39,837 bases of DNA from a virus, in the IMG/VR virus record IMGVR_UViG_3300046501_000546, positions 1 through 39,837 of that record. One strand, 5' to 3'. Of this stretch, positions 2,417 to 39,837 are shown in pieces. The position numbers were made by a program, and so were the translations under genes. The notes under the pieces are model-generated. The model did not search any database, was not told the origin of the DNA, and worked only from the letters and a program-made list of their open reading frames with translations. The first letter of the stretch is position 1. Each line of letters opens with the position of its first letter.

Positions 2417-4156
2417 ATGTCGGAATTCATCACGGATAGTCAGGATGAACAAAGCTTTGAAGCGCTTTTGCGGGATGCTGATCAAATTCACGTTCCAATA
2501 TTCCAAAGAAACTATGTTTGGAAGCAAAAACAGTTAGATGAATTATGGACAGATATAAATCAGGTAAAATCTGAGATAGAAGAAATACAATTCATGGGGG
2601 CAATCGTTGCTTACGAGAAACCCCGTGGAGGTAGCACTGTTGGACGAATGAAAGCGCTAGAAATTGTCGATGGGCAACAGCGTGTTCTTACACTGTATAT
2701 ATTTGTTATGGCTATAGTCGAATTTCTTGCCCCTCTTGATAAGGAGGAAGCAATGGAGCTGGTAAGGGAGTTTTTGCTACTGACTCCTCGGCGCGGGCTT
2801 GAAATTAATACACGTATCGTTCCTGCTTTTGCTGATCGTAGTCAGTTTCGAGTTATTTGGGATAGAATAAATAGTCCAGATATTTTGCAGGATGAGTTAG
2901 AAGATTTTCATCTTCATCTCCCTCCTCCAAGTGGTGATGCAAGTGGCGAGTTAGTAAATCAATACCACAGGATATTGAGGTATTTGCGAAAAGAGTTACC
3001 ACAAGAGGATACGGAGCAAATTGAGTATCTTCGTGAAACTTTGGGTGTTTTGACGCGGCATCTATCATTTGTGCACTTGAAGCTCAACGATGCGTCGGCC
3101 GCTACAAAAATATTCGAACGGTTGAACTTTAGGGGTGTAAGGGTTGGAATTGTAGATTTAGTTCGAAACGAAATTTTTTCAAGTTTGGCGGGGGATCCTA
3201 TCGAAACGCAGCGCGTATTTGATCATGTGTGGAGACCTTTTGAGATTGCATTCAATGATCGATCAGAGACTTTCTTCTTTCCATATTGTTTGATTCAGGA
3301 TAGTAATACTAAGAAGTCTGAGTTGTTTATACAGTTAAGAGCTTCTTGGAAGGGGTTGACCCCACAAAAGATGATCGAGCATATGAAGCCTTTTCAGCAG
3401 CCATTTGTTGCAATTGATCAGTCAGGGCATCACCCAGGTAGTGCTGAAATATCGAAGTGTCTCGATCGCTTCGTACGTTTGCGGCGCCCTTCTTCTGTGT
3501 ATCCTTTTGTGATGTCGTTGTTGAAGTCGCATTCTGATTCTAAAATATCTGAATCCTCAGTAGTTCAGCTATTAAATGCATTGGAGTCTTTTCTAATTAG
3601 GCGGGCAATAGTTGGCTTGGAACCAACAGGTTTACATGCTCTATTTAAAGGGCTCTGGTTTCAGATGAAAAAACATACTGTGGCTGAATTTAAGCGTCAG
3701 ATCGCTAGTAGGCCGACTATACAATGGCCAAGTGATCTGGATGTTAAAAATGCTATTCTGAAGCGAAGCCTTGCCGGCGCTAATATATGTTCTTATTTGT
3801 TGGTAGAATATGATCGAGGCCTTAAGGGTGATAATCCTTCTTCTGTTTCTACTGTCGAGCATATTTTGCCGCAAACATATGACGAGGAGTCTGAGTGGGC
3901 CGAAGTGTTTAGTAAGGAACAGCATAAGCATATGAAGGACTTGTTAGCAAACGTGGTGCCCTTGTCTTCGCCGCTAAACTCATCTCTTCAAGATGTGGCT
4001 TACTCAGTAAAAAAAGTCAGATATCAAAAGGAATCCATGTTCACGACGCCTCGCGATCTTGCAAGTAGGTGGGTAAAATGGACTCCAAAGTCAATTGAGC
4101 AGCGTTCGATAGTGCTAGCTGATTGGGCAATCTCTCGCTGGGATCAATCGTTGTAA
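2417..4156 (+). CDS. DUF262/DUF1524 single-chain protein, GmrSD-like (modification-dependent restriction or SspE-like defence)
   Basis: 579 residues. The N-terminal DUF262 (GmrS-type) domain shows the FQRNYVW motif at 29-35 and the nucleotide-binding/hydrolysis motif DGQQR at 85-89. The C-terminus carries a DUF1524 His-Me finger nuclease motif: EHILPQ with H482, then LANVVPL with N512 and N521, then a VKKVRYQKE tail. Known members combining these domains are type IV GmrSD enzymes acting on modified phage DNA and the SspE effector of phosphorothioate systems; no Ssp modification genes are seen here, which favours a stand-alone GmrSD-like enzyme. The ATG at 2417 has GAGGGG a few bases upstream. 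The gene is visibly AT-rich compared with the late genes, sits between tRNA-Cys and the integrase, and has its own terminator, all signs of acquired cargo. Confidence 0.85.
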   Translation: MSEFITDSQDEQSFEALLRDADQIHVPIFQRNYVWKQKQLDELWTDINQVKSEIEEIQFMGAIVAYEKPRGGSTVGRMKALEIVDGQQRVLTLYIFVMAIVEFLAPLDKEEAMELVREFLLLTPRRGLEINTRIVPAFADRSQFRVIWDRINSPDILQDELEDFHLHLPPPSGDASGELVNQYHRILRYLRKELPQEDTEQIEYLRETLGVLTRHLSFVHLKLNDASAATKIFERLNFRGVRVGIVDLVRNEIFSSLAGDPIETQRVFDHVWRPFEIAFNDRSETFFFPYCLIQDSNTKKSELFIQLRASWKGLTPQKMIEHMKPFQQPFVAIDQSGHHPGSAEISKCLDRFVRLRRPSSVYPFVMSLLKSHSDSKISESSVVQLLNALESFLIRRAIVGLEPTGLHALFKGLWFQMKKHTVAEFKRQIASRPTIQWPSDLDVKNAILKRSLAGANICSYLLVEYDRGLKGDNPSSVSTVEHILPQTYDEESEWAEVFSKEQHKHMKDLLANVVPLSSPLNSSLQDVAYSVKKVRYQKESMFTTPRDLASRWVKWTPKSIEQRSIVLADWAISRWDQSL

Positions 4157-4191: not shown

Positions 4192-4227
4192 GTCCGGGTC
4201 TCCATATTTTATGGGCCCGGGTTTTTA
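4192..4227 (+). terminator. Terminator downstream of the DUF262 gene
   Basis: CCGGG (4194-4198) pairs with CCCGG (4216-4220), followed by GTTTTTATT. The loop is rather long, so strength is uncertain. It separates this gene from the convergent integrase gene. Confidence 0.55.
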
Positions 4228-4236
4228 TTGAGCAGA

Positions 4237-5310
4237 CTATTTAGTTGGCTTCACAATTTCCCCAACGCGTCGATATACTCTCTTTGTCATTTCCTGAGTT
4301 GAGTGTCCGAGCAAACGACTCGCCTCGGCGATATCCTCGATTTCGCTAGCTGCTTTTGGGCGGATGTCCCTAAACTGGAACTGACGGATGGTGGTGGCCA
4401 GAGTCGAGTTCCCTTCCGCCATCGCTTTGGTTGCGGCTGAATCTCTTGCTTCATCCCAGCGATTGCGCAACATGGCATAGCTCATGCGCAGCCCAGCCTG
4501 GTTGGTGATCAACCGGGAGGTTTTGATTCCGGCGGCGGATCTGCGATCGAACAGGGCATCAAGAAACACGCTCAGCTCTGTTGCCAGGGAGCCGTTGTGC
4601 AACCTGATCCTCAAGCGCTTTTCCGTTTTTCCTTGGCCGACCATCAGAAAACCGTTGCTGATATCGGTGTCTGACGTTTTGAGTACGTCACCTGGTCGCT
4701 GGCCAGTGAGATAAGCCAGATCCATCGCATCTTTGAGTTCTTGCGGCGCCTCGATGTAGACGGCTTTCCATACGATATCGCCAGCGTAATAATCCCGAGG
4801 TGTTTCCTGGTTACGGCGCAAGCCGAAGCATGGGTTTGCTTTCTCTGTCAGTCCCCACTCGCGGGCAAAAGTAAACATGGTGGACAGTAAGGCTATCTCT
4901 CGGTTGGCGCGCACCTTTGCCGTTCGGGCGTCACGATATTGCGCGATGACCTGCGGGGTGATGGCATCAAGAGGGGCGGACTCGAACGCTTTCCGTAATT
5001 GCCTTAGGCCTTTTACATAGTCCTCTTGGGTACCTTTCTTTAATTTTGGAATAACCTTCGATTCATAATCATCGAATAACCGGCCCATTAAGTGGGCCGG
5101 TTTGGGAATTGCTTTGCGGTCGAGTCGTGCCCATTCGATCTTGGCTTCGTCCAGGTCGCTGCCGAGCGGGATCTCGACACGGTTGCCGTCGGCATCTCGC
5201 CCGTTATAGTAGTAGCCCGTCCATATGGTGCCGCCTTTTCTTTTGCGGGTCCGCCGGATCATCCGTGGCGGCAGGTCTCGGTTTGCTGTTTTTTTTTGTC
5301 GCATCGTCAT
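4237..5310 (-). CDS. int: Phage tyrosine recombinase (integrase)
   Basis: 357 residues when started at the ATG (5308-5310) that overlaps the stop of the upstream gene as ATGA; a longer frame adds nine residues. The N-terminus is a basic arm-type DNA-binding region (RMIRRTRKRKGGTIW), followed by a core-binding domain. Catalytic residues visible are R205 (TGQRPGDV), R317 (in FRDIRPKAAS), H336 (LLGHS) and the nucleophile Y346 (VYRR). The usual first histidine of the HxxR box is R314, a variation that also occurs in active members. Role: site-specific integration and, with an accessory factor, excision. It is the last gene of the leftward operon and points to tRNA-Cys. Confidence 0.95.
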   Translation of the reverse strand: MTMRQKKTANRDLPPRMIRRTRKRKGGTIWTGYYYNGRDADGNRVEIPLGSDLDEAKIEWARLDRKAIPKPAHLMGRLFDDYESKVIPKLKKGTQEDYVKGLRQLRKAFESAPLDAITPQVIAQYRDARTAKVRANREIALLSTMFTFAREWGLTEKANPCFGLRRNQETPRDYYAGDIVWKAVYIEAPQELKDAMDLAYLTGQRPGDVLKTSDTDISNGFLMVGQGKTEKRLRIRLHNGSLATELSVFLDALFDRRSAAGIKTSRLITNQAGLRMSYAMLRNRWDEARDSAATKAMAEGNSTLATTIRQFQFRDIRPKAASEIEDIAEASRLLGHSTQEMTKRVYRRVGEIVKPTK

Positions 5311-5591
5311 CCCACTCGCGAAAGGTCGAGAGTCCAAGTCTCGGCTACGGCGTTGTTTGCCGTGGGTTTGACGCCGGCCAGTTTCAGTCGGGCATAAACC
5401 CGGCCGACGACTGGGCGTTGGGCTCCGGTCAGCACGAACTCCCAGTGATTGCTAGTCAGCCACTGACGCTGGCAGGACGGAATTTTGTAGCCGGTGATGG
5501 TGGCCAGCTCTTCGTCAGTGAGGGTTTCGCTGAGAAATTCTAAGGGCTGCCGCCCGATTGGTCTGATCGCTGCGGTGTGGTGTGTGGTCAT
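5307..5591 (-). CDS. DUF4224 domain protein, integrase-associated
   Basis: 94 residues, with GGAGG upstream of the ATG at 5591. The middle matches the DUF4224 pattern: FLSETLTDEELATITGYKIP, then QRQWLTSNHW. This small domain is found in phages directly upstream of integrases and resembles a DNA-binding (excisionase-like) fold, but its function is not settled. The stop overlaps the integrase start by 4 bp (ATGA), indicating translational coupling, so a role in recombination directionality is a reasonable inference. Confidence 0.8.
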   Translation of the reverse strand: MTTHHTAAIRPIGRQPLEFLSETLTDEELATITGYKIPSCQRQWLTSNHWEFVLTGAQRPVVGRVYARLKLAGVKPTANNAVAETWTLDLSRVG

Positions 5592-5696
5592 GCCGTCAGC
5601 CTCCGGCGGTGATGATGATCAGGTCTTGTGCGTGCATGTGCTGTGTCTCATGGAGTGCATGATGTTTGCCCCTGGGCGGCAGGGGCCACCGTTGAA
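5592..5696 (-). other. Short gap in the integrase operon; nothing convincing
   Basis: About 105 bases between the PrtN-like gene and the DUF4224 gene. A 12-codon frame (MHAQDLIIITAGG-like, without an evident ribosome site) lies on the coding strand, and a CCCCTGCCGCCCAGGGG hairpin lies near 5671-5688. Either might matter for expression of the two distal genes, but nothing here can be called a gene. Confidence 0.3.
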
Positions 5697-12437: not shown

Positions 12438-12769
12438 GTGCGCTTAGAAGTGTGTTGGGTGTGTCGGGTGTGTGTTGGGTTGGTTTTCGATACCCCACAC
12501 AGATTTTGGCTTTGAATTTCGCTGGTTTGCGGGCGTTGTGTCGGGTGTGTTGGGTTTGGCTTCGTGCGCGCGCATGCGTAACGTTATTTCGATGGCTAAT
12601 AACGGAAAGAATTTTTTCTTATGCGAGGACAGATAAACCCAACAAACCCAACACACTAAACACAATGTTGTTGAGGATATTGATTTTAAAGGGATTTGTT
12701 TGTGTTGGGTTTGTGTTGAGTAGTGGTTTTTTTGTGTCGGGTTCGGTTTTTCGGGAGGTCGGGCGATGA
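12434..12769 (+). CDS. Questionable 111-aa ORF lying over the repeat array
   Basis: An open frame from an ATGA overlap with the primase stop to an ATGA overlap with the next start. Those junctions look like real operon joints. The protein, however, has odd composition (repeated VLGV, VCWV and RVCWVW runs) that comes directly from the GTGTTGGGT-type DNA repeats. No domain is recognisable. I lean toward a non-coding repeat region that happens to stay open. Confidence 0.25.
   Translation: MSALRSVLGVSGVCWVGFRYPTQILALNFAGLRALCRVCWVWLRARACVTLFRWLITERIFSYARTDKPNKPNTLNTMLLRILILKGFVCVGFVLSSGFFVSGSVFREVGR
12451..12742. repeat. Array of TGTGTYGGGT repeats, candidate replication origin
   Basis: Exact copies of TGTGTTGGGT or TGTGTCGGGT start at 12451, 12460, 12471, 12537, 12546, 12701 and 12733 on the plus strand. 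An inverted exact copy lies at 12646-12655, with a partial one just before it, and a one-mismatch copy starts at 12712. The copies enclose an AT-rich stretch (12590-12700). Repeats grouped around an AT-rich segment directly after the replication gene resemble iterons of an origin (inference). Confidence 0.6.
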
Positions 12770-13248
12770 TCGAGGCAATGGAAGTGCTGCTGAAGCACTG
12801 GGGCGAGCAACTTCGGCGTAATGGTGAGATGGGCGGCATGGGCAGCCCGATGGCAACGATCATGGAGTGGGGCGGTTGTGCGCCGCGCGGTACGCCTGGG
12901 TCACGGATCATCCTCGGCGGCGGGGCTGGGCCTGATGAAATTGCACAAGTGGTTGGCGCTGCGTTGTCGGATCTGGCTCGGCAGGATGAGCGGGGAGAGC
13001 GGCTGTATCGGTTGGCCGTGTTGCGGTATAGCGATGATCCGGCGCCGACTTGGCTGATGCAGTTACATCTGCTGGATTCGTTGTCCAGCGCCAAGCAGAC
13101 CTACTACGACCTGGTACACCGGCTGCATGAGCGGTTGCTGATGGTGCTGACCGAACGGGCCGAGGCGCGAAAGTGGCTTGCCACTGGTCGGGGCGGTTTG
13201 CCTCAAAGTCTCCTCAAAGTTGCGTCAAAGTCGCGTCAAGTTGGATAA
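12766..13248 (+). CDS. Phage protein, candidate late-gene regulator
   Basis: 160 residues, with GGGAGG seven bases before the ATG. It opens MIEAMEVLLKHWGEQLRRNG and has a conserved-looking MEWGGCAPRGTPGSR segment. The C-terminal half (LHLLDSLSSAKQTYYDLVHRLHERL) resembles the DNA-binding end of phage Q/ArpU-like late regulators. The position, last early gene before the lysis and head genes, supports a late-transcription role, but the family is not firmly recognised. Its 3' end contains four 11-bp-spaced TCAAAGT-type repeats. Confidence 0.5.
   Translation: MIEAMEVLLKHWGEQLRRNGEMGGMGSPMATIMEWGGCAPRGTPGSRIILGGGAGPDEIAQVVGAALSDLARQDERGERLYRLAVLRYSDDPAPTWLMQLHLLDSLSSAKQTYYDLVHRLHERLLMVLTERAEARKWLATGRGGLPQSLLKVASKSRQVG
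13203..13244. repeat. Four tandem repeats with 11-bp period
   Basis: TCAAAGT begins at 13203, 13214 and 13225, and a final TCAAGT at 13236, each exactly 11 bp apart. They occupy the last codons of the candidate late regulator and lie just before the leader region of the late genes. An 11-bp period places each copy on the same face of the DNA helix, suggesting a protein-binding site (inference). Confidence 0.55.
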
Positions 13249-13352
13249 CCTAAAATGCCCCCTTTTCGGTTCCGTACTCAGGGGGTAAAAAGTCCCCACG
13301 ATATGAAATTTGCGCCTCGGCGCGGACCTCGCACGTGCTGTGCAGCTTCACC

Positions 13353-13410
13353 CGGCCTTCCCTGAGCCGGTCACCTAACCCCGCTTCGGCGGGGTTTTTA
13401 TTTTCGGCCC
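13353..13410 (+). repeat. 58-bp direct repeat, copy 1 (with terminator)
   Basis: From CGGCC to CGGCCC; 55 of 58 positions are identical to copy 2 at 14036-14093. The two copies bracket the 163-aa cargo gene. The sequence includes a full Rho-independent terminator. Confidence 0.85.
13377..13403 (+). terminator. Terminator inside 58-bp repeat copy 1
   Basis: AACCCCGC-TTCG-GCGGGG followed by TTTTTATTTT: a strong tetraloop terminator, upstream of the cargo gene. Confidence 0.85.
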
Positions 13411-13497
13411 GTTGGTAGCTTGAAAAATCGTAAGATTGTCCCAATACCTCCAGAGCCGCTTGTGCATGGGCTCAACGCAAAGGAGTGAGGATTGGGT

Positions 13498-13989
13498 ATG
13501 ACTGATGATGTGGGTGCGAAGCTTGATGTGATTTTCAATGCTCGAGCTGAAAGAGAAGCTGAGGCTGGTCGCGTCAAGCGAGAGGCCCAACTGAAGCGAG
13601 AGTCCAGCCTTCAGGAGTTTTTGGCGCTGAAGGATACTGTAATCCGTCCCACTCTGGAGGCCTTGGCGCAACGCTTGAGCGACCGAGGTCAGAAGAGCGA
13701 GATAGTCGAAATTACAGATGGTGAGATGATTCACGGCAAAGTGCGGGATGCAGCAATCAGTTTACGGTTTTTACTCGATACAGTGGCGAGTTCTCTAAGT
13801 AGTAATGACTATCCTCACTTGACGTTGTCGGCCGATAAGGTTGGTCGGCGAGTGGCATTCCACTTCAGTACGATATCGCCCGGTAAAGGCGGAACCTCCT
13901 CCACTAATGGGCTTGTTGATTACGATGCTGTAACAGCAGAAATAATCAATGAGAAAGCCCTTAAGCTGATCGCTGTCGTTTACTCATAG
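13498..13989 (+). CDS. Unknown protein (163 aa), repeat-flanked cargo gene
   Basis: ATG at 13498 with GAGG seven bases upstream. The N-terminus is a charged helical region (VIFNARAEREAEAGRVKREAQ) that may form a coiled coil; the remainder looks alpha/beta with no membrane segment. No family is recognised. It sits alone between two terminator-bearing 58-bp repeats, with codon use less GC-rich than the late genes. That is how morons (lysogen-expressed cargo) are usually arranged. Function unknown. Confidence 0.75.
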   Translation: MTDDVGAKLDVIFNARAEREAEAGRVKREAQLKRESSLQEFLALKDTVIRPTLEALAQRLSDRGQKSEIVEITDGEMIHGKVRDAAISLRFLLDTVASSLSSNDYPHLTLSADKVGRRVAFHFSTISPGKGGTSSTNGLVDYDAVTAEIINEKALKLIAVVYS

Positions 13990-14035
13990 TGTTTTGAGCT
14001 TTTCGACGCTCATTGACGTGCTGTTTTTATTTCCT

Positions 14036-14093
14036 CGGCCCTCTCTGAGCCGGTTACCTAACCCCGCTTCGGCGGGGTTTTTATTTTCGGCCC
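14036..14093 (+). repeat. 58-bp direct repeat, copy 2 (with terminator)
   Basis: Three mismatches from copy 1 (at repeat positions 6, 9 and 20). It follows the cargo gene by 46 bases and precedes the first holin. Confidence 0.85.
14060..14086 (+). terminator. Terminator inside 58-bp repeat copy 2
   Basis: AACCCCGC-TTCG-GCGGGG followed by TTTTTATTTT, identical to the hairpin before the cargo gene. It ends the cargo transcript. Confidence 0.85.
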
Positions 14094-14119: not shown

Positions 14120-14473
14120 ATGAGTGAGCCGGCAACTGTTGTCGTAGCCGGTGGTGTGGGACTGGCGGCTACCGGTCTGCTGGCGGGCGTGGACATGCTC
14201 GCGGTAATCGGTGCACTGGCTGGTTCTCTTGTGTTCTTCACCACCACTGAGGAATTGCCGGTCTGGAAGCGGGTTCTATTCCTGCTGGTGTCTTTCGTGA
14301 TGGGTTACATGTTCGCCCCTGGCATGGCCGAGGTTGAGTTGTTCGGCACCAGGCCTTTCAAGTACACCGGGCCAGCGGCGTTCGGTGCGTCGGTGGTTGT
14401 TGTTACCGTCGCGCTGGCTGTCATCAAGCGGCGTGGCCTCATTGCTGAACAGCAAGGGAGGCAAGATGGATAG
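14120..14473 (+). CDS. Putative holin (117 aa, three or more TM segments)
   Basis: AAGGAG (14107-14112) precedes the ATG at 14120. Hydrophobic segments: VVVAGGVGLAATGLLAGVDM with MLAVIGALAGSLVFFTT, then VLFLLVSFVMGYMFA, then a C-terminal AAFGASVVVVTVALAVIK followed by basic residues. This is the layout of small phage holins of the type found next to terminase genes in Pseudomonas phages. Role: timed permeabilisation of the inner membrane for lysis. It overlaps the next holin-like gene by 8 bp. A longer in-frame start at 13994 runs through the terminator and is rejected. Confidence 0.75.
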   Translation: MSEPATVVVAGGVGLAATGLLAGVDMLAVIGALAGSLVFFTTTEELPVWKRVLFLLVSFVMGYMFAPGMAEVELFGTRPFKYTGPAAFGASVVVVTVALAVIKRRGLIAEQQGRQDG

Positions 14474-14756
14474 TCAACTGATGCCGCAAGTTCTCACTCA
14501 GGTCACCTTCTGGTTGTGCGTGGCGTTGTTCATTCGGCTGTTTACGTTCCGCCGTCATGGTGCGCGGTTTCGCCGGAGCATGAGTTGTCTTGCCTGGCTG
14601 GTGATGGTCGCGTCTGGTTCTGCGGTTGTGTACATCGGTAAGGGCCAGTTGGTGATGCCACCTAACTCGTGGCCGCTGGTGCTGTTGCTTGCAGTGTTTG
14701 TTGGGTCGGTCTGCAAAAGCTCGGGCAATCTGGCGCGGGTTTGGAAGGTGGGTTGA
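14466..14756 (+). CDS. Putative 3TM holin (Phage_holin_3 type)
   Basis: 96 residues with three predicted membrane helices: VTFWLCVALFIRLFTF, SCLAWLVMVASGSAVVYI and SWPLVLLLAVFVGSVC, separated by the basic RRHGARFRR loop. It resembles the small 3TM holin families of Pseudomonas phages and lies in tandem with another holin-like gene; one may act as the antiholin. The start uses AGGGAGG upstream. The stop overlaps the HNH start by one base. Confidence 0.75.
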   Translation: MDSQLMPQVLTQVTFWLCVALFIRLFTFRRHGARFRRSMSCLAWLVMVASGSAVVYIGKGQLVMPPNSWPLVLLLAVFVGSVCKSSGNLARVWKVG

Positions 14757-26372: not shown

Positions 26373-28289
26373 ATGGCCGATAAGTTTCAACTTAAGGCGC
26401 TGATTACCGGTGTCGATAAGCTGTCGCCGACCTTGGCCGGTATCCGGAAAAATGTCGCCAGCTTCCGTAAGGGGCTAGAGCGCACGGGGCTGGGCAAGAT
26501 CGGCTTTAGTGACATCGTCACGGGCGGAGCTTTGGCGGCCCCGTTCATTGCCGGGGCCGCGGCCGCGATTGAATTTGAGTCGCAAATGGCTGATGTGCGT
26601 AAGGTGGTCAACTTTGACACCCCGGTGCAGTTCAAGCAGATGGGTGAAGACATCGGGAAGATGTCTGAGCGGCTGCCGATGGCTGCCAATGACATTGCCA
26701 AGATCGTCGCCGCCGGCGGCCAGTCGGGCATTGCCCGGGAGGAGCTGCTGGGCTTTGCCGAGGCGGCGGTGAAAATGGGTATTGCCTTCGACCAGACCGC
26801 TGACGAAAGCGGCAGCATGATGTCAACGTGGCGCACGGCATTCAAAATGAGCCAAACCGATGTGGTCGGGTTGGCGGATAAAATCAACTACCTGGGCAAC
26901 ACCGGTCCTGCCAACACCAAGCAGATTTCCGCCATCGTCACGGAAGTCGGGGCGCTGGGTGAGGTGGCCGGTCTTTCGTCGGGCCAGATCGCCGCGATGG
27001 GGGCGACCATGGCCGGCGTCGGCGTCAAGCAAGATGTGGCCGCTACCGGCATCAAGAACTTTATGTTGGCGCTGACCAAAGGCTCGGCGGCGACCAAGAG
27101 CCAAGCCGAGGCTTACAAGGCGTTACGGCTGGACTCGAAAAGCGTGGCTGTGGCGATGCAAAAAGATGCGCAGGGGACAATGCTGGATCTGCTCAAGCGC
27201 ATTTCGCAGGTCGATAAAGCCAAGCGTCCCGCGTTGCTGACCAATTTATTCGGCAGCGAATCGATTGCGGCGATTACGCCGCTGCTGACCAACCTGGGGC
27301 TACTCGAGAGCAACTTGCAAAAGGTCGGCGACACCACGAAGTATGCCGGCTCGATGGATAAGGAGTACGCCTCCCGCGCGGCCACCACAGCCAACAACCT
27401 GCAGCTGTTGCGCAACGCCGCAGCCAGTGTGGCGCGGTCGGTCGGCAATGCCCTGTTGCCGGGTATCAATGCGGTGGTCGATGGCCTACGGCCGATGATT
27501 GCCTACGCTGCGGAGTTGATCCAGGCCAACCCGCAGTTGGTTCGTGGCCTGGCCATCGCCGGCGGCGCCTTCACCGCGCTGCGGGTGGCGGTGTTTGCGG
27601 CGACCGTGGCCACCCGGGTGTTAGGCGTGGCCTTTGCGGCGACACCGGTGGGCATCATAGCCGTCGCTATCGCCGCGGCGGCGGGTTTGATCGTTGCCAA
27701 TTGGGAAACGATCGGGCCGTTCTTCACCGCGCTGTGGGAGCTGATCAAGGCGCTGTCGACACCCTTTATGGAATTTATGAGGGGCGTGTTTGATTGGTCG
27801 CCGCTGGGGTTGCTGATCAAGCACTGGTCGCCAATCACCGCCTTTTTTAAAGAACTGTGGGAGGGGGTCAAACCGTACTTGCAGCCGATCCTGAGTATGT
27901 TCGGGCTTGAAGAGGGCGGCGCCGGGCTCACCGCGAAAGTGGCCAGTTACGCCGAGGAGCAACGCCAACGCAATGCTGGCCCCGGCGGCGGTACCGGCGC
28001 GTTCCTGCAGGCCAATGCGGTGAGCATTGCGAGGAATCAGCAGGCCGAACGTAACCTCACCCAGACCGGCCTTGATCCGGGCAAGCTATTGCGCCCGCTG
28101 GGGCTGCCGGCCCCGGGCTCACTGGTACAGCAAGCCTCGGCGAATAACCGCACACAACTGGATGGGGCGTTGGTGATGCGTTTCGAGAACGCCCCGCCGG
28201 GCTTCCGGGCCGATCCGGGGACGAGCAACCAACCAGGGCTGTCGATCACGCCGAAGGTGGGCTACCGCACGCTAGGGGGAAATCCGTAA
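26373..28289 (+). CDS. Tape measure protein (TP901-like)
   Basis: 638 residues. The N-terminal third matches phage TP901-type tape measures (EFESQMADVRKVVNFDTPVQ, ANTKQISAIVTEVGALGEVA, MGATMAGVGVKQDVAATGIK). Hydrophobic stretches lie in the middle (AGGAFTALRVAVFAATVATR, VGIIAVAIAAAAGLIVANW). It sets tail length and forms part of the ejection conduit. It is short compared with many siphophages, in line with a short contractile tail. Confidence 0.9.
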   Translation: MADKFQLKALITGVDKLSPTLAGIRKNVASFRKGLERTGLGKIGFSDIVTGGALAAPFIAGAAAAIEFESQMADVRKVVNFDTPVQFKQMGEDIGKMSERLPMAANDIAKIVAAGGQSGIAREELLGFAEAAVKMGIAFDQTADESGSMMSTWRTAFKMSQTDVVGLADKINYLGNTGPANTKQISAIVTEVGALGEVAGLSSGQIAAMGATMAGVGVKQDVAATGIKNFMLALTKGSAATKSQAEAYKALRLDSKSVAVAMQKDAQGTMLDLLKRISQVDKAKRPALLTNLFGSESIAAITPLLTNLGLLESNLQKVGDTTKYAGSMDKEYASRAATTANNLQLLRNAAASVARSVGNALLPGINAVVDGLRPMIAYAAELIQANPQLVRGLAIAGGAFTALRVAVFAATVATRVLGVAFAATPVGIIAVAIAAAAGLIVANWETIGPFFTALWELIKALSTPFMEFMRGVFDWSPLGLLIKHWSPITAFFKELWEGVKPYLQPILSMFGLEEGGAGLTAKVASYAEEQRQRNAGPGGGTGAFLQANAVSIARNQQAERNLTQTGLDPGKLLRPLGLPAPGSLVQQASANNRTQLDGALVMRFENAPPGFRADPGTSNQPGLSITPKVGYRTLGGNP

Positions 28290-37899: not shown

Positions 37900-38862
37900 T
37901 TATTGTATGTTTGCATTGCTCAATTTTTTCCAAATCCAGCTTAGGGTGCCGATATAAGGGATTATTGTTATATATAAAAGTAGATAGTTTAGTTCTTTAG
38001 GCCATTTAACGCTGTAATCGGCTTGTATGCTTAATAATACTGGGGGTAAAAAAACGCCAGTTGTAAGGAGCAGTGCAACGACGCCTATGGCTTTCATGGT
38101 TGTTTTTTTTATTTGAAAGTGGGAGTTAAATAAGTTGTAGTTTTCTACTGCGGAGCGAAGTTCAATGAGAGTGCTGTCCCTATATCTCACTACCCCCTCG
38201 AAGCCATTTCGAATAATGCTCTCGTAATCAATTGTAGGTAGTGGGTTGTTTTCATAGTATTTTGCCCAGATGGCGGCTCTCTCTTCTGGTAATATAGTTG
38301 GATTCTGTTCTAGTTCTTTATGTTGTTTTTCGATGTTTGCTTGTTTTTCTTGTAGGGTTGTTAGTTTTGCTACGTTTAAAATATCGTCTTTAGATTGTCT
38401 CCATATAAAAGCAAAGGCACTTAGGCGGAGTGATATTTCGCTGAGTCTTTCATCGTCTACTAGGTTTGGAGTTGGTTTTAATGTCTTTGACGTATTTGGG
38501 TTGGTGGTCGCTTTTATGGAAAATGGAGGTGAGAGGTAAAGAAGTCCGAATAGTCTGCAAAGACTCTCGCATATTTCTTTGTTTGGTTCGTTTTTGATAA
38601 TAAACCATTGTTGTTTTATAATGGTTTTGCATGTTTCATATTCTAGGACTCCATCTGTTAATAGTGGGTCATTAGCCATGATAGAGAATGTGTTTACATA
38701 AAACGCAAAATTTGTCGCGTCTTTGGATGTTCTTTCGAGTCTAATTCGAGCTTCTTGAATTTTCTGATAAGCATATATTGCATACGCAGAATAAAAAGCG
38801 GCACCTATGCCAATCAGTGTGGAGTGGATAGAAGGAAGGGTCGTTAAAATTGCTGAGTCCAT
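37900..38862 (-). CDS. AT-rich membrane protein of unknown function (320 aa)
   Basis: One N-terminal membrane helix (about residues 12-33, STLIGIGAAFYSAYAIYAY), a long soluble region with coiled-coil potential (TTLQEKQANIEKQHKELEQN), and two C-terminal membrane helices (IGVVALLLTTGVFLPPVLLS and LLLYITIIPYIGTLSWIW). AAGGCAG lies before the start. It is transcribed against the late genes and is AT-rich with codon use unlike them, so it is likely horizontally acquired cargo. No family is recognised; phage exclusion or defence is a hypothesis drawn only from the location. Confidence 0.75.
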   Translation of the reverse strand: MDSAILTTLPSIHSTLIGIGAAFYSAYAIYAYQKIQEARIRLERTSKDATNFAFYVNTFSIMANDPLLTDGVLEYETCKTIIKQQWFIIKNEPNKEICESLCRLFGLLYLSPPFSIKATTNPNTSKTLKPTPNLVDDERLSEISLRLSAFAFIWRQSKDDILNVAKLTTLQEKQANIEKQHKELEQNPTILPEERAAIWAKYYENNPLPTIDYESIIRNGFEGVVRYRDSTLIELRSAVENYNLFNSHFQIKKTTMKAIGVVALLLTTGVFLPPVLLSIQADYSVKWPKELNYLLLYITIIPYIGTLSWIWKKLSNANIQ

Positions 38863-39085: not shown

Positions 39086-39837
39086 TCATCGAAATAGCGC
39101 TTTGGTGACGGGGCCGGTGTACATCCAGACAGTATCCTCTCCCTTGCCTCTCCAAGGAATTGCTACTGGGGGATTGGTGTGACACATGATAATTTCTTTA
39201 TCTGTAACTACGATCGCGGAGTTTCCCTCGGGCCAGATTCCTTGTATTTTTATGAGGCCAGGTTTTAGCACCTCGATGTCTAATATTATCAAGGTGCCAT
39301 TGGCGCCGTACTCGGGGTCTTTTCTTTGCATTAAAAATAATGCCATGGCAGGAAGGTAATATCTTGATGTTGGGCCTGTTATTGTTATTTTTCCGGGGCG
39401 CTGTTCAATTCCTATATCTTTGTCTTTAATTACTTCGATGTTGTTGTCGGTGATTTTTAGAATGGTCTTTCCGTCTCTGTCGGTAAAGGTGGAGCTAACG
39501 CTTAGCCATCCATTTTTTACGGAAAAACTGAGTTTGTTTTCGCTGGATAAATCAAAAGTTATTACGGTGTTTTCGCCTTCTCGCGCAATTGCAATTGATC
39601 CAAGCAGTATCTTTGGACTGCCGCCGGGTTCAACGTATACATGGCTGTATAGTTTTTCCGGCTCGCTTGCTCTCTCGATTCCTTTCCATCTGTATAGGGT
39701 TTCATCGTCAATGATTAGAGTCCCATGATGGCATGCGTCGTGACAGGCTGGACAGACAGCGATCATGTGTTCTTCGTTGTGACTGCGGTAAACAGACCAC
39801 TGTTTTATATGGTGGATTTCTGATCTTGTGTTGCTGC
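39086..39837 (-). CDS. HNH endonuclease-domain protein, N-terminus cut by window end
   Basis: The frame stays open to the window edge. It reads SEIHHIKQWSVYRSHNEEHM and then IAVCPACHDACHHG, an HNH motif (EIHH, N, CxxCHxxCHH). About 200 further residues contain beta-rich sequence (EGENTVITFDLSSENKLSFS, KTILKITDNNIEVIKDKDIG) of unknown role. It could be a phage or island nuclease with a sensor-like C-terminal domain. An in-frame ATG inside the HNH motif (39766) is not the true start. AT-rich like the preceding gene. Confidence 0.7.
   Translation of the reverse strand, partial: SNTRSEIHHIKQWSVYRSHNEEHMIAVCPACHDACHHGTLIIDDETLYRWKGIERASEPEKLYSHVYVEPGGSPKILLGSIAIAREGENTVITFDLSSENKLSFSVKNGWLSVSSTFTDRDGKTILKITDNNIEVIKDKDIGIEQRPGKITITGPTSRYYLPAMALFLMQRKDPEYGANGTLIILDIEVLKPGLIKIQGIWPEGNSAIVVTDKEIIMCHTNPPVAIPWRGKGEDTVWMYTGPVTKALFR

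Follow-up and report, generated by a model that had tools for sequence, protein, structure and literature searches.

Phage morons of the HK97/HK022 type are extra genes that sit between other phage genes and are expressed independently of them. The account in PMC2629481 uses the term in this sense, for an independently expressed gene inserted between phage genes. For P. aeruginosa, AlpA has been described to cause read-through of a terminator ahead of lysis genes (PMC7969949; PMC9371919). The locus presented here lies in a viral DNA stretch of 39,837 nucleotides (IMG/VR record IMGVR_UViG_3300046501_000546; the whole stretch is referred to as the window), and the carriers of the corresponding slot form a family of Pseudomonas phages. 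We consider it probable that a moron cassette has been inserted here into the leader of a late operon controlled by Q and that a second terminator bars the transcript of the cargo gene from the lysis genes.

The original prediction had described a 58-bp near-perfect repeat containing a terminator, and this was borne out: positions 13353-13410 (T1) and 14036-14093 (T2), both on the + strand, are identical at 55 of 58 positions, and an intrinsic terminator is present in each copy. In a repeat search of the window, the pair could be extended to 83 nt, though only weakly (84% identity). The core pattern of the repeat occurs at no other site in the window and did not appear in any of 100 shuffles. 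As determined by repeat comparison, hairpin and terminator scans and comparison with relatives, each copy is a unit of two hairpins, the final one of which is the intrinsic terminator (8-bp stem and T tract; 13377-13396 in T1 and 14060-14079 in T2), while the second hairpin is located upstream of it. Between the copies lies the cargo gene, which encodes 163 aa from its ATG (13498-13989, + strand) or 165 aa if the TTG at 13492 is taken as the start. It had been taken as the sole content of this interval; it is indeed the only gene there, but a conserved promoter-like element and a 5' untranslated region are found beside it.

Upstream of T1, the gene at 12766-13248 (+ strand) encodes a protein of 160 aa belonging to phrog_4300 (listed as 'unknown function'). 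Its AlphaFold2 model reached a mean pLDDT of 73.7, with two poor stretches. When the model was compared to the PDB by Foldseek, the top three matches were Q21 chains with a probability of 0.96-0.98 but weak E-values of 0.2-0.4, and VIA-align ranked seven Q21 entries at the top (Z 8.4-9.9 over 92-111 aligned residues), ahead of an entry with Z 7.0, with AlpA scoring lower (Z 6.0 and 5.1). As middling Z values can arise by chance for mostly helical models, the match to the Q21 fold is good, but not final. A phmmer search against the PDB gave no sequence match at E<=1, Q21 included, and the product is therefore called Q21-type by fold and place and not as a sequence member of that family. A weak match to the NCBIfam PA0613 family remained below the cut-off. 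The fold and position suggest that phrog_4300 represents the late antiterminator family of these phages.

The stretch from the stop codon of the Q-like gene to T1 (13249-13352, + strand) is a leader conserved in the loci compared, and a 33-nt leader pattern occurs in 99 viral stretches; as an RNA family, it has no match in Rfam. The late promoter and the Q-loading site would be located within this leader. Downstream of the insertion, two holin genes (14120-14756, + strand; 14120-14473 and 14466-14756) form its flank and the start of the lysis module, as identified by PHROG (phrog_198, E 2.8e-26; phrog_217, E 3.4e-22) and Pfam (Phage_holin_8, Phage_holin_3_7), and these are followed by genes for an HNH endonuclease and terminases. 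The order of Q-type gene, leader, terminator and lysis genes is that of a late antitermination switch, and T1 is therefore taken as its terminator, by place and fold a predicted tR'-type terminator of the late operon. The two terminators had been thought to insulate the cargo gene. Since the left copy appears to be the ancestral late terminator behind the Q21-type gene, the copies are not to be regarded as neutral insulation. Short direct repeats of about 11 bp occur at or just after the end of the Q-like gene, in the window at about 13202-13244 with the sequence AAAGTYGCGTC. In L003, L086 and L119 such repeats follow the stop codon of the Q gene, and GTCGTATTGTG-like repeats occur with the second Q type. 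These elements could be candidate sites for Q or an activator and presumably resemble the pyocin P box.

Relatives were collected by several routes. The Q-like gene as query identified 80 viral loci and 23 loci in Pseudomonas genomes, some of them with the cargo, and the cargo protein as query identified 3 viral loci in a first scan and 13, including repeats, in a second. The cargo was present in one of 398 genomes of a sample of the genus Pseudomonas and in none of 390 genomes of a sample of the order, a draw without any positive genome. Searches by tblastn of 50,697 phage records and 72,556 plasmid records gave no match. A first scan of genome contigs with the cargo family also gave no match, yet L115, later found via its Q gene, carries the cargo; that scan thus provides no evidence of absence. 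Before counting, L025, L089, L090, L094 and L095 were dropped as contigs of kept loci, as were L093, which has the same cassette as L092 without a Q gene, and L051, which has no sequence past Q. Altogether, 16 loci carry the cargo, 15 of which are distinct and include the Q gene. In 16/16, the cargo is located between T1 and the first holin gene and is followed by a second terminator-like stem; none of the 16 loci has the cargo outside this slot. In L004, a further insertion follows T2 (about 4200-5600): the first holin ends after about 30 residues, and the stretch past it is followed by a holin of another family.

A survey independent of both Q and the cargo was based on the 33-nt leader pattern. 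Among its 99 stretches, 16 had less than 900 nt past the leader, leaving 83 that were long enough and, after removal of 8 copies of others, 75 distinct loci. The majority of these (63/75) contain no insert and exactly one terminator; counted from where the leader pattern begins, the holin gene is reached after 141-200 nt. Ten of the 75 carry this cargo. A strict detector recognized two terminators in nine of these but not in the L059 contig, in which the second stem contains a weaker pair. The remaining two (L136 and L131) have other cargo at the same place. L136 has a small gene of the kind found in L029/L032, plus a gene on the opposite strand, after the first terminator, the same arrangement of a small + strand gene and an opposite-strand gene as in L029/L032 themselves. 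A second terminator was looked for in L029/L032 and L136 and none was detected, so that not every insertion requires one. In L131, the first 600 nt or so past the leader contain a minus-strand gene for a probable membrane protein, then the apparent remains of a second terminator. With the contents of L131, L136 and L029/L032 read from their translations alone, three kinds of cargo have been seen at the slot so far. The original prediction had proposed to look for relatives with a single copy and no gene and for different genes at the same place, and both were found, the former in most of the loci surveyed and the latter in two of them as well as in L029/L032. The opposite outcome, relatives that all carry the gene and both copies, is excluded by the empty sites.

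Ten pairs of loci were compared. In 5/5 pairs of a filled and an empty site, the two flanks of the insertion overlap on the empty site, and the overlap falls inside the terminator (window/L006, 63 bp; L082/L081, 30 bp; L059/L075, 66 bp; L119/L116, 35 bp; L091/L081, 22 bp). The identity of the two flanks is unequal in some pairs, e.g., 97.6% and 88.1% in L082/L081. A single fixed insertion site with direct repeats and hairpins at both cassette ends would also be compatible with a cassette that moves by a site-specific or transposition route (integron-like, Xer-like or non-autonomous), the repeats then being recombination sites or a target duplication. We regard this as very unlikely indeed, as the length of the overlap varies from 22 to 66 bp, the end repeats are direct and not inverted, the cassette is without a recombinase, the cargo is found at no other place in the 16 loci, and the repeated sequence is the late terminator that these phages have even where there is no cargo. 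Inverted terminal repeats with a fixed target duplication, as of a transposable element, were not found either. The flank overlaps show insertion at one site, the late terminator.

The similarity of the two terminators differs widely between loci. Over 59 positions compared without gaps, T1 and T2 match at 55 in the window, at 53 in L003 and at 29-49 in the other 13 loci, with only 29-37 in L004, L059, L082, L085, L091 and L115; such ungapped counts are lowered by any single insertion or deletion, as is probably the case in L059. The near-perfect repeat of the window is one end of this range. As T1 and T2 are not near-identical in most relatives, the conserved feature is the presence of a terminator and not the repeat. 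By inspection and alignment, a terminator-like stem is present 3' of the cargo in 15/15 distinct insertions. In the alignment of the 15 T2 rows, 13-15 rows pair at each of 8 positions, and at one pair five rows are changed on both sides. In five loci (L065, L082, L086, L087 and L092), T2 contains the short stem AAACCCGC..GCGGGTTT, or a variant of it as in L065; no T1 does.

Sequence traces beyond the hairpin are most pronounced in L088. Here, about 34 nt past T1 correspond to the leader of a holin family present in other phages (score 42, a level attained by none of 2000 shuffles), while the holin of L088 itself belongs to a different family, and the 13 nt before the T2 unit are identical to the end of the Q leader. 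L005 has a sign of a holin leader after T1 (score 28), and L059 a sign of the Q leader before T2. Compared to each locus's own leader, homology around T2 beyond the hairpin was significant in 4/14 loci, and a score of at least 18 was reached by 12 of 180 control 39-mers. Therefore, a duplication of the terminator region flanking the insert appears clear in L088 and is suggestive elsewhere; in the remaining loci, T2 may have arrived with the cassette.

On a tree of 113 Q genes (15 rows with cargo), the presence of the cargo requires at least 9 changes, 7 of which are forced by well supported branches, a pattern indicating repeated gain or loss, between which the tree does not distinguish. Shuffled labels required 14.2 changes on average, and hence the cargo is somewhat clustered. 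L059 and L065 are joined by near-zero branches on the Q tree, but the later part of the cargo gene differs, as a swap would leave it. Among the 98 cargo-free Q loci, L116, a Pseudomonas genome contig, is the only bearer of the short-stem terminator allele. By hand count from the aligned rows, its left part differs at 1 of 37 positions from T1 of its tree neighbor L086, and its right part with the holin leader differs at 1 of 65 positions from L086 T2. This hybrid of a T1 left part and a T2 right part looks like a scar of excision between the copies; the same hybrid would also arise if the lysis module were exchanged with that of a filled phage. Entry and exit of the cargo by recombination at a duplicated terminator, as originally proposed, thus gain support from the empty and other-cargo sites and from the L116 hybrid.

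T2 might instead be independent of T1, having come with the cargo, its likeness to T1 being due to convergence or later gene conversion, with no recombination between the copies. The six loci in which T2 is far from T1 and the five in which T2 has a short-stem allele found in no T1 would fit such an origin. It is harder to reconcile with the T1/T2 matches of 55/59 in the window and 53/59 in L003, which include non-stem positions, with the leader and holin-leader sequences on the expected sides in L088, and with the hybrid terminator of L116. Overall, we consider this independent origin of T2 unlikely, and in the following T2 is regarded as a copy of the terminator region that was carried along or duplicated upon insertion.

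Within the cassette, an element resembling a sigma32 (RpoH) promoter is located at 13419-13447 (+ strand; CTTGAAA, 14 nt, CCCAAT). In 15/15 filled loci, an element that begins 79-83 nt upstream of the ATG consists of CTTGAAA, 13-14 nt and then CCCAAT or a close variant. The published sigma32 consensus is given as CTTGAA-N13-17-CCCCATNT (PMC4263515), and the usual single mismatch to the pattern is CCCAAT in place of CCCCAT. The sites score 12/13 in 12 of the 15 loci and 11/13 in the other three, with 2 of 900 shuffles reaching at least 11 against a pattern that was picked post hoc, with the conserved element already in view. At 12/13 or above, this is the only + strand site in the window, one minus-strand site occurs at 28187, and other phage sequence, 184,056 nt in total, contained none. 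As a control in five Pseudomonas genomes, Hsp20 genes scored 12/13 and groES only 10/13; one Hsp20 locus (L125) was unreadable and left out. In most cargo loci, the spacing exceeds that of the Hsp20 control by one base. A consensus scan detected no sigma70-type site for the cargo. Thus, the cassette has what looks like a promoter of its own, of the sigma32 type. An RNA thermometer hairpin in the 5' untranslated region was considered and is unsupported, with 3 pairs, none of them changed on both sides. In the openly available literature, we found no paper on a prophage moron driven by RpoH or a heat-shock sigma factor.

The base composition also sets the cargo gene apart, as its G+C content is 44.9-51.6% compared to 58.2-62.7% for the Q gene, in 15/15 loci. 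In agreement with what defines a moron, the cargo is thus inserted between genes adjacent in relatives (63/75 sites empty; five filled/empty pairs), is followed by its own terminator in the sequence of 15/15 distinct loci, and differs from its neighbors in composition in 15/15. One might rather think of a regular late or regulatory gene, e.g., a regulator of lysis timing, which was lost in many relatives and never acquired: the cargo is always located directly before the holins and would be transcribed by the Q-modified polymerase. Yet the gene is absent from 65 of the 75 distinct relatives, its composition departs from that of its neighbors throughout, it has its own promoter-like element and terminator, and it is found beside two holin families that do not cluster together. 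A regular late gene is therefore very improbable, and an acquired moron remains our preferred reading.

The cargo represents a real protein family with 14 aligned members, the others being 43-81% identical to that of the window. Invariant positions include the N-terminal region from M1 to A15 and I49-P51TL53. The model of the protein (pLDDT 89.7) has a helix at residues 2-62, seven strands and a C-terminal helix. No Pfam, PHROG, NCBIfam or PADLOC family matched above chance; profiles of PDB proteins gave weak matches only, mostly to ribosomal eL40 (best E 0.0092), and Foldseek with the model gave none at E<=0.001 in the PDB or BFVD. Mediator, CapZ and frataxin folds were considered on the basis of VIA-align; as the best Z of 8.9 is little above the level of a common arrangement, no fold is claimed. 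A role in protecting the host or the prophage is only a guess from the kind of gene.

Further genes of note are found elsewhere in the window. A gene for a GmrSD-type restriction endonuclease (2417-4156, + strand; GmrSD_N, E 2.2e-27; GmrSD_C, E 7.6e-18) is located between a tRNA-Cys gene (2087-2160) and a minus-strand integrase gene (4237-5337) and is possibly a defense gene at the prophage edge. A search near the tRNA-Cys gene revealed no attachment-site repeats of 14 nt or longer. At the right end, two minus-strand reading frames (37900-38862, 320 aa; 39086-39766, 226 aa) have no Pfam match, and the former no PHROG match either; they are possibly further cargo genes.

From these data, we propose the following scenario. 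The ancestral order would have been the Q21-type gene, the late promoter region, T1 and the holin genes. In the absence of Q, the late transcript would end at T1; in its presence, the polymerase would continue into the genes for lysis and the head. A cassette of roughly 620 bp, consisting of its own promoter and the 163-aa gene, would have entered between T1 and the holins, and T2, as a further copy of the terminator region, would have been brought along or duplicated in the process. In the lysogen, the cargo would be transcribed from the sigma32-type promoter, and heat or the stress of infection might raise its expression. Cargo with its own promoter ahead of holins would read into the lysis genes, and a terminator after the cargo is therefore useful. 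Such a need would explain why T2 is present in all 15 distinct insertions and why its stem is kept while the sequence varies. By halting the cargo transcript before the holins, T2 would allow the cargo to be induced by stress without switching on lysis, and during lytic growth the Q-modified polymerase would pass both T1 and T2, so that late expression is kept. The homology between T1 and T2 may further allow cargo to be gained, swapped and lost by ordinary recombination. The more far-reaching version, in which the late terminator is a plug-in slot with homologous swaps, the cargo is protective, heat-shock-driven and made by the prophage upon stress of or attack on its host, and T2 blocks the triggering of lysis, is tentative, and we think it more doubtful than the core proposal of a moron cassette in the late leader. 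The scenario would account for how a moron can precede lysis genes without firing them, and a regulatory terminator doubling as a recombination handle would be a route for cargo turnover. It also indicates where new cargo of Pseudomonas phages can be sought, namely in this small slot, and draws attention to a hitherto unstudied protein family for which the promoter suggests control by stress.

Several described systems share individual features with this locus. The prophage defense hotspots of P2/P4 (PMC9122126) and BstA (PMC8585504) are likewise small variable slots between conserved phage genes; the slot described here is a different one, and its cargo has no defense-family match in PADLOC. 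The Q21 and AlpA switches, as presented in PMC7969949 and PMC9371919, have the same order of antiterminator gene, promoter, terminator and lysis genes. The Q-like gene resembles Q21 in fold only, with no detectable sequence similarity. Tab of P. aeruginosa phage JBD26, according to the description in PMC10884400, is likewise a moron of a Pseudomonas prophage that is located in the late region and has its own promoter, but it is flanked by terminase genes and encoded on the opposite strand, and no protein similarity to the cargo is claimed. Morons of the HK97/HK022 type and the 'ant moron' of P22-like phages (PMC2629481) are also inserted between genes that are adjacent in relatives and have a promoter-like site and terminator of their own, with varied contents at one place. 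Compared with these, the site used here is the late terminator itself, the terminators stand in direct repeat, and the promoter resembles the sigma32 type.
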